Assembly: GCF_000415985.1 (NCBI RefSeq)
Contig: NZ_KE356561.1
Coordinates: 557,555 to 616,930, forward strand
DNA: 59,376 bases
Reading direction: 5' to 3'
Source: Haloquadratum walsbyi J07HQW2
Lineage (GTDB): Archaea > Halobacteriota > Halobacteria > Halobacteriales > Haloferacaceae
This document shows positions 14,003 through 57,820 of this stretch, piece after piece. Both the position numbers and the translations under genes were made by a program. Each line of letters starts with the position of its first letter. The stretch's first letter is position 1. The notes under the pieces are model-generated. The model was not told where the DNA came from, ran no database searches, and saw only the letters and a program-made list of their open reading frames with translations.

Positions 14003-14096
14003 AGGCTAAGTCCCCTTCCTCAAAGAGTGACTGCAGGAGAAAAGTAGGGAGAGGGATGGGATACAGCCGTATACTATAACCCGGCAAATACAATTA

Positions 14097-15296
14097 GCGG
14101 TAGTCCTGGCTATCAATTACTTAAAGAAGCGTTCAACTATCGAGCAGTGCTGGCGGACACCACTACTGCCGGGAGTGCGTGGCAGGCAATCCAAACTTGC
14201 CGTGAAGTATACAACCACGTACACGCAGTTACACAAGAGCACAGACCTGCTCCTGACCACAACAAGCCGTCGTATAATAAGATACAGTGCAGAAATGCTC
14301 CCCGACTGGAAACGAAAATGAGCAGAGTGGTAAAGAGTGTGCTTAAAATGCCTTCAAATGGCTGTTCGACGCATCACACACAGCGAGAGTGTCCTCGACT
14401 CCCTGGAAGAATGCGGCTTCAAAACTGGTCGTCTCAACTGGAAACCACCACGAGAATACCGTAGCAGTAAGTATACTTAATCTGGCTTTGACGTGGATAA
14501 TAACACGGGTCAGTCTGGTCACGCTACTGTGAGATTCTCGAAGATTAGTGACTTCTACCTGGACTATCATCGACCACTCACAGAGAGTACTGATATTATC
14601 GAAGTCATACTCAAGAACCAACAGACAGCTGACTGGGATGTAAGTATTGTGCTCGAGTACAATGCTGACTATCCAGACAAACCTGCTGTCGAGAATATCT
14701 CTATCGAGGATACCGGAGGAATCGACCTCGGTATCACGAGATTCAGTCACGATTCAGAGAATAGAGTGTTTGCTCGGCTGGACGAACATAAAGATCGTGA
14801 GAGAGTTGACAAACGGCATCAAAACCTTCCTCTCAAACAATACGAATCAGAAAACTAGAAAAAAGCCCAACGATCACTACTACGAGCATACAAGCGATTG
14901 GAAAACCGAAGAGAAGATTGTCGTGAGAAGCTCGCTTTCTGGCACACGAAAGAATACGACGCAGTATTTTTTGAAGACATATACGTAGCGTAGCCTCAAT
15001 GACACAGCAGGAGCAGGATAGAAGCGAAGTGTTCGAATCATAGTTGCAATGTCATGTCGTGGTATGCGACAATCCAAGCCTTTGCGAGACATTTTAAAGA
15101 GAACGGTTGTCACGCAGTGTTGGTTGACCCTGATGGAACGACAAAGCAATGTGTCAATTGTGGAGGTGAGACTGAGACACGGTTGCGGGTTCGGGAGCAC
15201 TCATGCCAACGTCGCGGATTCACGGCGGACAGGGAGTATAATGCATCGTTAGAGGTTCATCAGCGTGGATTCGAAGAGTTACAGTTGGGAGTGTGA
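14097..15296 (+). pseudogene. tnpB: TnpB nuclease of element 2, degenerate
   Basis: The N-terminal part reads AWQAIQTCREVYNHV (about 14167) and continues after a shift as RITHSERVLDSLEECGFKTG. The frame from 14493 gives FDVDNNTGQSGHATVRF and the RuvC-I motif GGIDLGITRF with its Asp. A frameshift near 14858 leads into EYDAVFFEDIYVASLN, which retains a RuvC-II Glu. The last frame (15054-15296) gives WYATIQAFARHFKENG, a zinc ribbon with one pair intact (CVNCG) and the other damaged (SCQRRG), and RuvC-III TADREYNAS. Catalytic residues are recognisable, but at least three frameshifts and the broken zinc ribbon make it inactive. Confidence 0.8.
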
Positions 15297-52817: not shown

Positions 52818-52835
52818 ATGCAGATGCAGATGCAG
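52818..52835 (+). repeat. (ATGCAG)x3 hexamer repeat
   Basis: Three perfect ATGCAG units close to the second integrase relic. Confidence 0.8.
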
Positions 52836-52876
52836 AGGGACTCAAATGAGCCAATAAGCACGGAACATGGCGAGGT

Positions 52877-53449
52877 TTGTTATTATCGGAGGCTAGTGTC
52901 CAACAATGCCTTCGAACCGGGCATCCTGACCCCGATAACCCAAACGCAATTGTGTTTTATTCAATGAGACAACGTAATAAAGCAACTCATAGAATAAGAA
53001 GCTCATCGACAATATATGATAAACTAGATTATATGAAAAAAGCCGGAGTAGACAAGCCATTGAATCCTCATACACTTCGGCATAACTTTGTCACAATTGC
53101 TCTTCGCCGTGGAGTAGCTGAAAGTGCAATCAAGCATCAACTTGGTCATGCTCCAAGCAGTCGGGTCATGAGGTCAACATACTCTCATCTGAAGGATAGC
53201 GATTATATCCGACAAGCACGGGAGTCATTTGATTTAGAAGTAAATGATGATGAATCAGAGTTAACTACAGAGGTTTGTCCTCGGTGTGGTGAGAATCCCC
53301 CCGAGTGAAGCGCGGGTTTGTCCATGCTGTGCTTTAGAGCACACACACCAGATGCAAAAGGTATGATGGAGAAAGCACATGAAGCAACACGGATGGCATA
53401 TCGAGAACGCCCATTTTCTCGGCTTTCAGACCTTTCACCTGCAGTTTGA
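52877..53449 (+). pseudogene. Tyrosine recombinase (integrase) C-terminal relic
   Basis: The frame reads GHPDPDNPNAIVFYSMRQRN, then KPLNPHTLRHNFVTIALRRG (catalytic Arg-His), KHQLGHAPSSRVMRSTYSHL (GH motif and the Tyr nucleophile) and a tail ending CPRCGENPPE at TGA 53306-53308. The tail continues in other frames as EARVCPCCALEHTHQMQK and MMEKAHEATRMAYRERPF to a stop at 53449, so a zinc-finger-type C-terminal extension has been frameshifted twice. The first ~200 residues are lacking. It is a sibling of the 11.3 kb relic and marks another old integration. Confidence 0.75.
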
Positions 53450-53493
53450 GATATATTTAACTCTCTTTATCACTATCATATTACTTGTGTTCG

Positions 53494-53733
53494 ATGGGAG
53501 AGACTATTGAGATTATCGTCAACGGAAGGGAACATACAATACTAGCGACAGCCGATTCGGAAACACAGATACTTTCCGAGATAGGACTGACTCCTTCTGA
53601 ATATCGTCTTTTTCGAGATGATGTCCCGTTAGTAGAACGCGGGAAGGAACACCGAATTGATCAGTCGGTGTCACTCGAAGACGGAGACAGATTTGCGGCT
53701 ATTCCATCGGAGGTTTTTCACGATGACTCATAG
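53494..53733 (+). CDS. Single-domain ubiquitin-like (multiubiquitin-type) protein
   Basis: A 79-residue protein from ATG 53494: MGETIEIIVNGREHTILATA, DSETQILSEIGLTPSEYRLF, RDDVPLVERGKEHRIDQSVS, LEDGDRFAAIPSEVFHDDS. The beta-grasp order fits the multiubiquitin-domain family of bacterial ubiquitin-like conjugation systems: strand IEIIVNGREHTI, helix ILSEIGL, strand EYRLF, late strand DGDRFAAIP. It has no C-terminal Gly-Gly. An ATG at 53722 overlaps the end of this gene and starts MTHSHGGT before a stop, so the next gene of an operon has probably decayed. Partners (E1/E2/JAB type) are not visible. Identification is by pattern only. Confidence 0.55.
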   Translation: MGETIEIIVNGREHTILATADSETQILSEIGLTPSEYRLFRDDVPLVERGKEHRIDQSVSLEDGDRFAAIPSEVFHDDS

Positions 53734-56369
53734 CCACGGCGGTACTTGATTACGAGAACAGTCCGTCAGATACCGAGACATGATTCCACAAAGAGCCGGC
53801 AGGCTTCCGTAGACACCGACTCTTCAGATTTTCAGGAGGCTCTCATACTAATGCCTGAGAACGGAAGCAGACAGCTCTCACAGACTATTGTCTCGAGTTG
53901 TCATCACGGTGTGGGAATATTCGCTCATGCAGTGATGAAAAGAAGTGCTCGATTCAGATACGTGAATCTGGGAGAGGGAACCGCACCCTGGACCTGGAGG
54001 TACCGACCGCCACTATTCTGAGAGACGAGATCGACCGCAATTAAATGCTGGAAATATGGTTCAGGTGTTCGATCATGCAAACTTAGCACAGAGCTCGAGA
54101 CAGTTTGGATCAGAGCCCCGTCGAAAACCGACGTTGTGGAAGCTATCTGTGATTGGGCGTATCCAGATGTAGTAATTTCCGTTCTTGAAATAATCACGGC
54201 TCATCTCTTGAGACTCGGAGATATCCCAGCATGTGTACCTCTCGCATAGATTGGGAAGCTCTTGACCTTCCAATATCGATTATTGTAGATTATTGTAGAG
54301 AAAACATCAGGGATATATGGTGTGCAGGAGGACCTCACACAGAGTGGATGAGGCTGAAAGCCACGGTAGCTAACAGTCCTGTAACGGCTTTCAGCGGTCC
54401 ATGTTGTTGATCTAGTGGCACATTTAGATCGGTTGTGAGTCCTCTGAGGGTAGTTGCAGTAGATACGACATTGTGTAAGGAGTGATCGAAGAGTTGAGCT
54501 CCTGAATATCACGATTGATTCAGTTACTGGCGTTGTGGGTTATCGAGCAATGCCAGCAATGCCAGCAACCGATTCACAGTCACTGGGAACAGCGTAGAAA
54601 TCTCCTGTATCGTCATGAGGGAGCCAACAGATCCCCTAAAGTCAATCTTCGAATCCTACACTACATGACGGTCGACATCATGTCCGAATCAAACGCTGTC
54701 AGAGCACACTTAGAGTGATGCCAGTAAACATGCGATTGTTTGCTGAACTCATAGTTGGGACCACTGGAACTGCTCATTCGCATTGATCCGTCGGTCTATC
54801 AGTTTGATTTCTTCATTTATTGATTGAATCAGAAAACTGACCAAACAGTCAATTCTATGCTCAACGTCACTTGGGTCAAGAGAGTAAACAAATGCCTCCC
54901 CGTGACGAGACAGAAGATTTGAGTCACTCGGGAACATCATCATTAGGATCGTGATCGTCACGGGACAAGCGGAGAGATACCTCGCCTTCTCGCCTATTTC
55001 AGACTCAGAAGATGAGAAGGACAATTATATGTCTTCTCGTGGCATTATTCTGTACCGTTGTAACGGGGCTCCCCCCTCCCCCTTCCCGACTGCAAGCCAG
55101 CTTACCCTATTACAATCCCCCCCCCCGTCCGTTGCAACGGCGAGAACCCTCATTGAGTGGTTTCTGAGTCAGTACCAATGTCATAACTTGACGGTGGTAT
55201 TCGACTATCGTATGAGACCTATCATCCACAAAGCGAGACGATAGAGGAGATATATCTGGATAATTGCGAGAGTAGTGACTGTGAATAATTCAGGGACACC
55301 ACGAATCCCAACTCCGGTAACAATTGCAATCCTCCGCTCTTCTTCACCAATCCTTCTTGACGTTCTTCTTCGACGGACAGGTTCACGATCTGAATACATC
55401 AGTGAATCTCCCTCTGCTATTATATTAATTCTCTTCGATATAGCAAACCGGATGCCGAGTAAGGAAGTCCACCAGTGGATGAGGGAAGACATAGCCTCTC
55501 GGTGTGAGAGCAATCGATATGTGAGATTCTCCTTTGGACTTCCCCGAAATACAAGACGAATCCCAACTGAACTTTCGTTGATCACGAGTAGATGGGTGAA
55601 CAAATGCCATGATTACCCGGATCCCAAGGATAGCAAGCTCGCGCCTTCGATAAAGAGCCGTCTCTCCGTGTGTAAGAGCCGAAGAGATACAGGGGTACGT
55701 CGGATGCGTCGTAGTGATCATTGCTTCGGCAGAGAGACGTACTCTTGATACAAGAGAAATATCGGGATTCTACGTTGGGTGCTCGAAGGACAAGTCTAGG
55801 GAAATTTGCCAGAGGTCAAGATCAATGCCATCACCTAGTTTGAGATAATGTTGGGATAACGCTCCGAAGGTCACGTATACTGAGGAGACTCGACCCGAAG
55901 ATTGGAATATCTGGGAGTGCCTCCTATCGAATACAGCGAGAGGACGAAATTCACCAGCAAACCGGTAGGTATGTGAGGCTGCTGAAAATCTTGGAATCAG
56001 ATCCCGTCAAATCAGTATCTTGAGTTATGTCGCCGACCGGCGAGTTGTCCGTGCGATCACTGGGGAAACAGCATCAGCATCAACAAACTCACCTTGATAA
56101 GGTGAGATTTTGGAGACACATAGAATTTATACTTTCTTCGTGTCAAATATACACACTGTTGCGACGGGAAGAAAGTCCACAGAGACGACAATCTCACCCT
56201 TCACTCCACATATCCTGTCCTAGTTCAAGACTGTCGGCGGACTGACCGTCGCAACGGCGAGAAAACAAAAACATACTGAGTGACTTCTCAAAAGACACGC
56301 TCAAACTGACACTGATCATGGTGCTGTTGAAACCTGTTTAGGGTTGAATCTGGTAGAGTAGAGTAGAGC
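53734..56369. other. 2.6 kb region without a firm gene
   Basis: Decayed DNA downstream of the ubiquitin-like gene. The best frames are a 91-codon one at 54749-55024 (minus; SLDPSDVEHRIDCLVSFLIQ and similar) and a 132-codon one at 55205-55603 (minus) with one hydrophobic C-terminal segment; neither has a family. It also holds a C10 run (55117-55126) followed by the palindrome CCGTTGCAACGG (55129-55140). Confidence 0.4.
55129..55140. repeat. Perfect 12-base palindrome next to a C10 run
   Basis: CCGTTGCAACGG is its own reverse complement. The related CCGTTGTAACGG lies at 55051-55062 and GTCGCAACGGCGAGAA at 56246. The first is preceded by ten C residues. Confidence 0.6.
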
Positions 56370-56762
56370 ATGATAACTGTCTACACTGATGGAAGTGTTG
56401 ACCCAGCCGAGCAGGAGGCAGGCATCGGATGGATACTCACAGATGCCACGGGCGAGGAAATCACACACAACTCACGGATTGAGTATCGAGAATCAACAAG
56501 TGCCGAATGGCTTGGGGTGATACATGCTCTCTCATGGATTGCCACACACAGAGACACCGATAGAGTCATGATTCACACAGATAGTAACAGTCTCGCAGAA
56601 GTGGCAGACGGCAAAAGTACACCAACAGCACAGAGCACACACAGATGGTATGGAAGATTCCGCAAATTGACGACGTACTTTGACACGGTAAGAGTACATT
56701 CTATTGCAAGTGCTCATAATCGAAAGGCAGATAGACTGGCCAGAACGGCATACAGGAACTAA
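56370..56762 (+). CDS. rnhA: Ribonuclease HI
   Basis: A 130-residue RNase H that cleaves the RNA of RNA-DNA hybrids. Catalytic residues are Asp7 (VYTDGSV), Glu46 (SAEWLGVIHAL), Asp71 (MIHTDSNSL) and Asp121 (NRKADRLAR), with the flexible-loop His116 just before the last one. The length matches compact archaeal/bacterial-type RNase HI with no extra domain. ATG 56370 is the only sensible start. Basic residues are fewer than in mesophilic relatives, as expected in a halophile. It stands alone; it may be a chromosomal or an element-borne copy. Confidence 0.9.
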   Translation: MITVYTDGSVDPAEQEAGIGWILTDATGEEITHNSRIEYRESTSAEWLGVIHALSWIATHRDTDRVMIHTDSNSLAEVADGKSTPTAQSTHRWYGRFRKLTTYFDTVRVHSIASAHNRKADRLARTAYRN

Positions 56763-56995: not shown

Positions 56996-57820
56996 TTATG
57001 TTAAACTGCTGAGAGTGGAAATAAAAATAGCTAATCCAATAAGAGTAAACTGAGACCCAACAATTGCAAAAAGTGCCCCCACGGTGTCTCTTTTTAATAC
57101 AGTGGTTCCTGTCAGATCATTCATTACATTCAGATGGTCTGTTTCAGGTGTCATGACTGCATCTGCGTCCGTATCCACATCTATACTGGTATCTTTGGCC
57201 CCCGTCTTTGGCGTTGGGTTTGCTTTTCCGACAACCGTCATTTGCTCGCCAAGACTGAGTGCTCCCTCGATCAATTCAATCGGATTTGGGACACTACCTG
57301 AGTCGCTTATCTCAGCTAGTGGATCCACGTTAATTTTCTCTTCATCAATCTCGCTTGATACCTCCCTCCCTCCTGTGACCGTCTGTTTCTGGGTATTCAA
57401 TGACAGAGTTTCTGTCGTAGGGGTAATCAATACCCCCGCTGTCTCATCAGAAATGTTAAATGGTCGATACTCGGTGCCAGAGTCAATTGAGCAGCCATCA
57501 TTCAGTTGAGAGCGAATTTCATACTTGTACGCCACACATACTTGATTGTGGATTGGTGAGAGAATCGTCTCACTCGGCTGAGATGGATGGACACCGGTGA
57601 TCTGAACTAATTCATCACTCCCAACAGCCTCATCAATTGGCACTGAATCCGTCGTGAATATTCTCCACGATCGATTGAGCTCCTTGATTCCACTAATTGT
57701 CAGAGATAATCCAACTCCTGTTGCGGCTATTCCGGCAAATAATCCGGGTAAAATCCCATCGACAGCTAATACAGAGCCGCCAAGTAACATAATAGACTCA
57801 AGAAAACTCTCAAGAGACAT
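56996..57820 (-). CDS. GIDE/BAM-domain membrane protein (MUL1-like, no RING)
   Basis: A 274-residue protein with TM helices at residues ~12-45 (VLAVDGILPGLFAGIAATGV region) and ~247-270 (GALFAIVGSQFTLIGLAIFI). Between them is a soluble domain: ELVQITGVHPSQPSETILSP, VCVAYKYEIRSQ, YRPFNISDETAGVLITPTTE. This CxxY(K/R)YE ... PF.(I/L)..D.TG.VL(I/V).P pattern is the GIDE (BAM) domain of mitochondrial MUL1. There is no RING finger, so ligase activity is not expected; the usual database name E3 ubiquitin ligase is misleading. It lies 3 kb from the ubiquitin-like gene, but no operon link exists. Confidence 0.7.
   Translation of the reverse strand: MSLESFLESIMLLGGSVLAVDGILPGLFAGIAATGVGLSLTISGIKELNRSWRIFTTDSVPIDEAVGSDELVQITGVHPSQPSETILSPIHNQVCVAYKYEIRSQLNDGCSIDSGTEYRPFNISDETAGVLITPTTETLSLNTQKQTVTGGREVSSEIDEEKINVDPLAEISDSGSVPNPIELIEGALSLGEQMTVVGKANPTPKTGAKDTSIDVDTDADAVMTPETDHLNVMNDLTGTTVLKRDTVGALFAIVGSQFTLIGLAIFISTLSSLT

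Follow-up and report, generated by a model that had tools for sequence, protein, structure and literature searches.

A predicted ubiquitin-fold protein encoded alone in Haloquadratum and the question of a lost conjugation operon

The 59,376-nucleotide stretch of DNA analyzed here (the window; G000:C1:557555-616930, within a single-contig genome of 3.59 Mb) carries a small gene that raises the question whether a ubiquitin-like conjugation operon has decayed around it or whether it was always a gene on its own. The first-pass annotation had described its product as a multiubiquitin-type protein of 79 residues followed by a decayed overlapping gene and offered two explanations: all that is left of a conjugation operon, or a protein that acts alone. 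Here, the gene, its single relative and the surrounding DNA (Table 1) were analyzed, and the results make it probable that the ubiquitin-like protein (Ubl) is a stand-alone, Haloquadratum-specific ubiquitin-fold protein which is under selection, is no operon leftover, is not conjugated and serves as a non-covalent binder.

Table 1. Features at the Ubl locus, in window positions
Feature	Position	Strand	Remarks
Tyrosine integrase relic	52829..53407	+	~207 C-terminal residues of a 471-aa protein; lacks the N-terminal part and contains in-frame stops
TATA-like element GATATATTTA	53448..53457	+	~37-46 bases 5' of the Ubl ATG; from sequence
Stand-alone ubiquitin-like (predicted beta-grasp) protein gene	53494..53733	+	79 aa; ATG 53494, TAG 53731-53733; ORF, ortholog and fold model
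Overlapping 8-codon frame MTHSHGGT-stop	53723..53749	+	judged chance, no gene
Intergenic DNA	53734..54119	.	no coding remnant recognised; no repeat copies in the genus
Mosaic of dispersed Haloquadratum repeats	54120..56369	.	no Pfam domain in any frame

The gene, its ortholog and its predicted fold

The open reading frame is present with the motifs quoted in the first-pass annotation and is a real gene. Its product is acidic (18 D/E versus 7 K/R) and ends in AIPSEVFHDDS, without a terminal glycine. A TTG at 53485 is in frame with the gene and might serve as an alternative start, and the TATA-like element could be a promoter giving a short leader. Searches of whole genomes of the family (170), the order (392) and the phylum (393) yielded one convincing relative, with 57% identity over 69 residues (E 8.5e-24; L003:1480-1719), on scaffold KE356560.1 (G100) of Haloquadratum walsbyi J07HQW1, a reconstructed Lake Tyrrell genome of the same genus (PMC4330952). 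Both this genome and that of the window are probably metagenome composites. A wider profile search of the 393 phylum genomes added no member, GTDB species contigs gave nothing convincing past the J07HQW1 copy, and no relatives were found in 50,697 phage records, 72,556 plasmids and IMG/VR; likewise, PDB sequence searches, PHROGs, NCBIfam and PADLOC returned no match. Weak matches at E 0.001-0.01, two in the family search (G117, G094) and six in the order search (G358, G329, G062, G267, G205, G409), were judged to be chance, G358 being a loose similarity of frame that was set aside and G267 being judged on a frame that differed from the matched one. The lone IMG/VR match (L002), antisense to a phage structural gene, was rejected, and plasmid matches to the J07HQW1 ortholog were short and weak. 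With 2 of 17 Haloquadratum genomes carrying it, the gene is, as far as can be seen, specific to two lineages of this genus.

Comparison of the two orthologs points to a protein that has been kept. Their 68 aligned codons contain no indels and differ 21, 11 and 39 times at codon positions 1, 2 and 3, respectively; dN of 0.29 and dS of 1.68 correspond to a dN/dS of about 0.17, which is a rough value since dS is near saturation. Judged from this one pair of sequences, the gene is shown to be under purifying selection. Moreover, when the last 14 kb of the window were compared by tblastx with 20 kb around the ortholog, the Ubl gene was the sole shared segment, and the selection pattern within the gene together with the unrelated flanks indicates that the protein was maintained while its surroundings differ. 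A spurious frame or a decaying, functionless fragment would fit a gene-poor, repeat-rich stretch in a species whose genome is sparsely coding and has more than 300 pseudogenes (PMC3119063); however, the 68 codons conserved between unrelated flanks, with changes biased to third positions and with intact length, leave this explanation with hardly any credibility.

The beta-grasp fold claimed for the protein was predicted by AlphaFold2 from a two-sequence alignment: the model (mean pLDDT 74) has strands at residues 4-9 and 12-17, a helix at 23-29 and strands at 37-41 and 66-71, which is the beta-grasp order. Foldseek against the PDB retrieved ubiquitin, SUMO and other ubiquitin-fold proteins as best matches, with Caldiarchaeum ubiquitin at the top (E 8e-04), and VIA-align superposed the model best on NEDD8 (Z 8.8, 1.9 Å over 67 residues). 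The separately modelled J07HQW1 ortholog was poorer (pLDDT 72), its best matches being again ubiquitin and SUMO. Over the first hairpin and the helix, both orthologs match the ubiquitin-like Pfam family DUF348 weakly and below threshold (E 0.009 and E 0.003). The features of the ubiquitin-like beta-grasp superfamily, namely a hairpin, a helix and strands packed on the helix, are present in the model with moderate confidence, the ortholog reaching a best VIA Z of 4.2. Taken together, these predictions make a beta-grasp fold of the Ubl likely.

Downstream DNA and the operon question

The overlapping ATG that had been read as the start of a decayed gene does open the reported short frame, albeit at 53723 and not at 53722. 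As a sign of gene decay it fails, because an out-of-frame ATG within 14 bases 5' of the stop accompanies 24% of all stop codons in the window. The proper yardstick for the "broken frames" reported behind it is the genus itself, in which low coding density, abundant pseudogenes and repeats are described (PMC3119063). Open runs in 53734-56369 extend over at most 167 codons, which is ordinary: shuffled sequences had a mean of 124 and 19 out of 300 reached 167. Six-frame translations of the same DNA (X at stops) matched no Pfam family, the one match obtained being at chance level (E 0.12), and 1789 of its 2636 bases (68%) have further copies in Haloquadratum genomes, certain stretches at six to eight sites, which marks them as dispersed repeat DNA. 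The repeat blocks lie at 54120-54289, 54676-54831, 54891-55169, 55180-55321 and 55328-56369 and beyond. A decayed gene was thus not borne out here either. The stretches 54891-55169 and 55328-56300 are non-coding repeats found in up to eight Haloquadratum places and were matched to no named transposable element.

The assignment to the multiubiquitin type could not be upheld: neither ortholog matched PF14452 (Multi_ubiq) by hmmscan at E up to 10, membership of this family being set at more than 24.5 bits to the profile, a whole-genome scan with PF14452 did not find the Ubl locus, and hhalign of the ortholog pair against three haloarchaeal Multi_ubiq-type proteins gave a probability of 0.6%. As a positive control, the PF14452 model does find a haloarchaeal operon (L034; G419:C5 around 14073-14276), in which a 110-aa PF14452 Ubl (E 1.3e-07) is followed by a gene that we take to be E2-like from its position and the operon type, its ORF having no Pfam match, and then by a ThiF-domain gene. 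The same gene order occurs on plasmids of Halorussus vallis (NZ_CP100004.1) and Halorarius halobius (NZ_CP101164.1), and haloarchaeal operons of this type start with a small Ubl that abuts or overlaps the E2-like gene. The Haloquadratum Ubl resembles the Ubls of these three operons in being a small single-domain protein of a haloarchaeon, and the first strands (VVFVDG and IIVNG) are superficially alike; by contrast, those proteins match PF14452 (L034) or are its relatives and have E2-like and ThiF genes immediately behind them, neither of which is true of the Haloquadratum protein. With the multi-Ubl protein mlr6139 of Mesorhizobium loti (PMC1779556) it has its predicted ubiquitin fold in common, whereas the type member consists of three tandem repeats and the Ubl of a single domain. 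The operon L034 and the two plasmid operons are good candidates for archaeal ubiquitin-type conjugation and better subjects for its study than the Ubl locus. In these operons (L034; L039, 4000-6460; L040, 4000-6336) the ThiF gene appears JAB-like by eye in its N-terminal part, and the first two genes of both plasmid operons are annotated as "hypothetical protein". Further PF14452 matches were discarded, those in G332 and G405 lying inside dehydrogenase-like and histidine-kinase-like ORFs and that in G312, beside a DnaJ-like gene, being judged chance.

The view that the Ubl alone outlived a Multi_ubiq-type E1/E2/JAB operon whose partner genes decayed in place can draw on its predicted ubiquitin fold, on the existence of genuine haloarchaeal operons with a small Ubl as first gene and on the adjacent integrase relic, which suggests a mobile element. 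Against this stand not only the missing resemblance to Multi_ubiq proteins and the repeat character of most of the downstream DNA, but also the partner genes themselves: tblastn with the proteins of haloarchaeal Ubl-E2-E1 operons, E2-like and E1/JAB proteins included, detected none near the gene in the window and none credible around the ortholog, no E1, E2 or JAB gene or remnant was found in 53734-56369 or near the ortholog, and the ThiF/E1-like and JAB genes of the genome are more than 1 Mb away. The E2-like, E1-like (ThiF) and JAB partners that define a Multi_ubiq operon are thus missing at the locus, the ortholog is equally solitary, and neither copy is decaying. The survivor explanation is therefore most unlikely, and with it goes a false lead, the idea that an antiviral or protein-tagging operon had decayed here. 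The first-pass annotation had itself named homologues never found beside E1, E2 or JAB genes as an observation that would speak against an operon, which is what the sole homologue in the collections searched displays; its second suggestion, a protein that acts alone, is supported.

Conjugation, mobile elements and a possible binding role

SAMP and MoaD work via a C-terminal glycine that is activated by an E1-like enzyme, and SAMP conjugation uses that glycine (PMC4443979). The Ubl lacks this hallmark of SAMP, ThiS and MoaD proteins, usually Gly-Gly: the orthologs end in SEVFHDDS and LSRQ, with no glycine in either, so that E1 activation and conjugation are unlikely. By analogy with the SAMP/MoaD/ThiS requirement, the Ubl would be neither adenylated by the E1-like enzyme of the cell nor attached to proteins. 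Some unrecognised processing might conceivably expose a glycine, but G64, the last one in the sequence, is situated inside the predicted fold. Like SAMP1-3, MoaD and ThiS of haloarchaea, the Ubl is a small protein with a predicted ubiquitin fold in the same kind of host, and E1-like and JAB genes are located elsewhere in the genome; it differs from them in its C-terminus and in having no Pfam ThiS/MoaD match. Haloarchaeal SAMPs need no linkage to their E1, and two full ThiF/E1-like proteins as well as JAB proteases are encoded elsewhere in the genome, which is what a conjugatable modifier of the SAMP type would need in order to be used in trans by a UbaA-type E1 and JAMM proteases; with the glycine absent from both orthologs, we nevertheless consider such a modifier very unlikely. 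One candidate partner pair, the genome's second cluster of an E1-like ThiF gene adjacent to a JAB protease gene, at 3.469 Mb (L051; G000:C1:3469091-3470464), was rejected on account of its sulfur-type neighbours and because J07HQW1 has one full ThiF as compared to two here; with cysteine-synthase-like and rhodanese-like ORFs alongside, this locus is probably a sulfur-transfer cluster. Another JAB-domain match (L048; G000:C1:1702133-1702414) contains one in-frame TGA and is apparently a decayed JAB gene.

Prokaryotic ubiquitin-fold families without the glycine are known, several of them stand-alone, and family-specific interactions have been proposed for them (PMC1779556). Two features of such proteins, a single predicted ubiquitin-fold domain and a C-terminus without glycine, are seen in the Ubl. 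It is comparable to the TmoB, YukD, RnfH and RSc1661 type (PMC1779556) in consisting of one predicted beta-grasp domain of about 80 aa, glycine-less and outside any conjugation operon. However, no sequence match to these families was found, and they are more widely spread and mostly have conserved neighbours, whereas the Ubl occurs in two Haloquadratum genomes and has no such neighbours. Following this analogy, we propose that the Ubl most likely functions as a folded module that binds a partner protein encoded elsewhere without covalent attachment, in the manner of TmoB, YukD and RnfH, a role that we infer solely from the predicted fold and the missing glycine. The two orthologs would extend the set of probably non-conjugating ubiquitin-fold proteins of prokaryotes by a small orphan family that is under selection and that, in the collections searched, was seen in two Haloquadratum genomes only.

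The integrase relic reported just upstream of the gene is real: residues 218-424 of an integrase that is intact (471 aa) in another Haloquadratum genome align with it at 57% identity, and PF00589 matches at 52877-53305 (E 1e-09). The Ubl gene may conceivably have arrived with the mobile element of this integrase. Separate entry into two Haloquadratum lineages as cargo of a mobile element such as a virus or plasmid, with the Ubl acting for example in counter-defence or regulation, would be in line with the patchy distribution, with the unrelated flanks of the two copies and with the relic beside one of them. Since the phage, plasmid and IMG/VR scans revealed no relative and the longer ORFs next to the J07HQW1 copy included none recognised as an integrase, this origin appears rather unlikely. 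It is highly improbable that a glycine-less, mobile-element-borne Ubl serves as a decoy that binds the sampylation machinery (UbaA, JAMM protease or Cdc48/proteasome) and modulates it; if true, it would be the archaeal equivalent of ubiquitin mimics that act as inhibitors.

Beyond the repeats, two further ORFs were noted. The ORF at 56996-57820 (-) encodes a membrane protein of 274 aa with a sequence pattern reminiscent of GIDE/MULAN-type proteins; Pfam gave no GIDE match and one weak match to another family. The ORF at 56370-56762 (+), intact and 130 aa in length, is by its sequence a small RNase H-like (RVT_3) gene that is duplicated or mobile: a second copy (L020, G000:C1:715899-716339) is 83% identical, and J07HQW1 has a related one (L015), which is partly masked.
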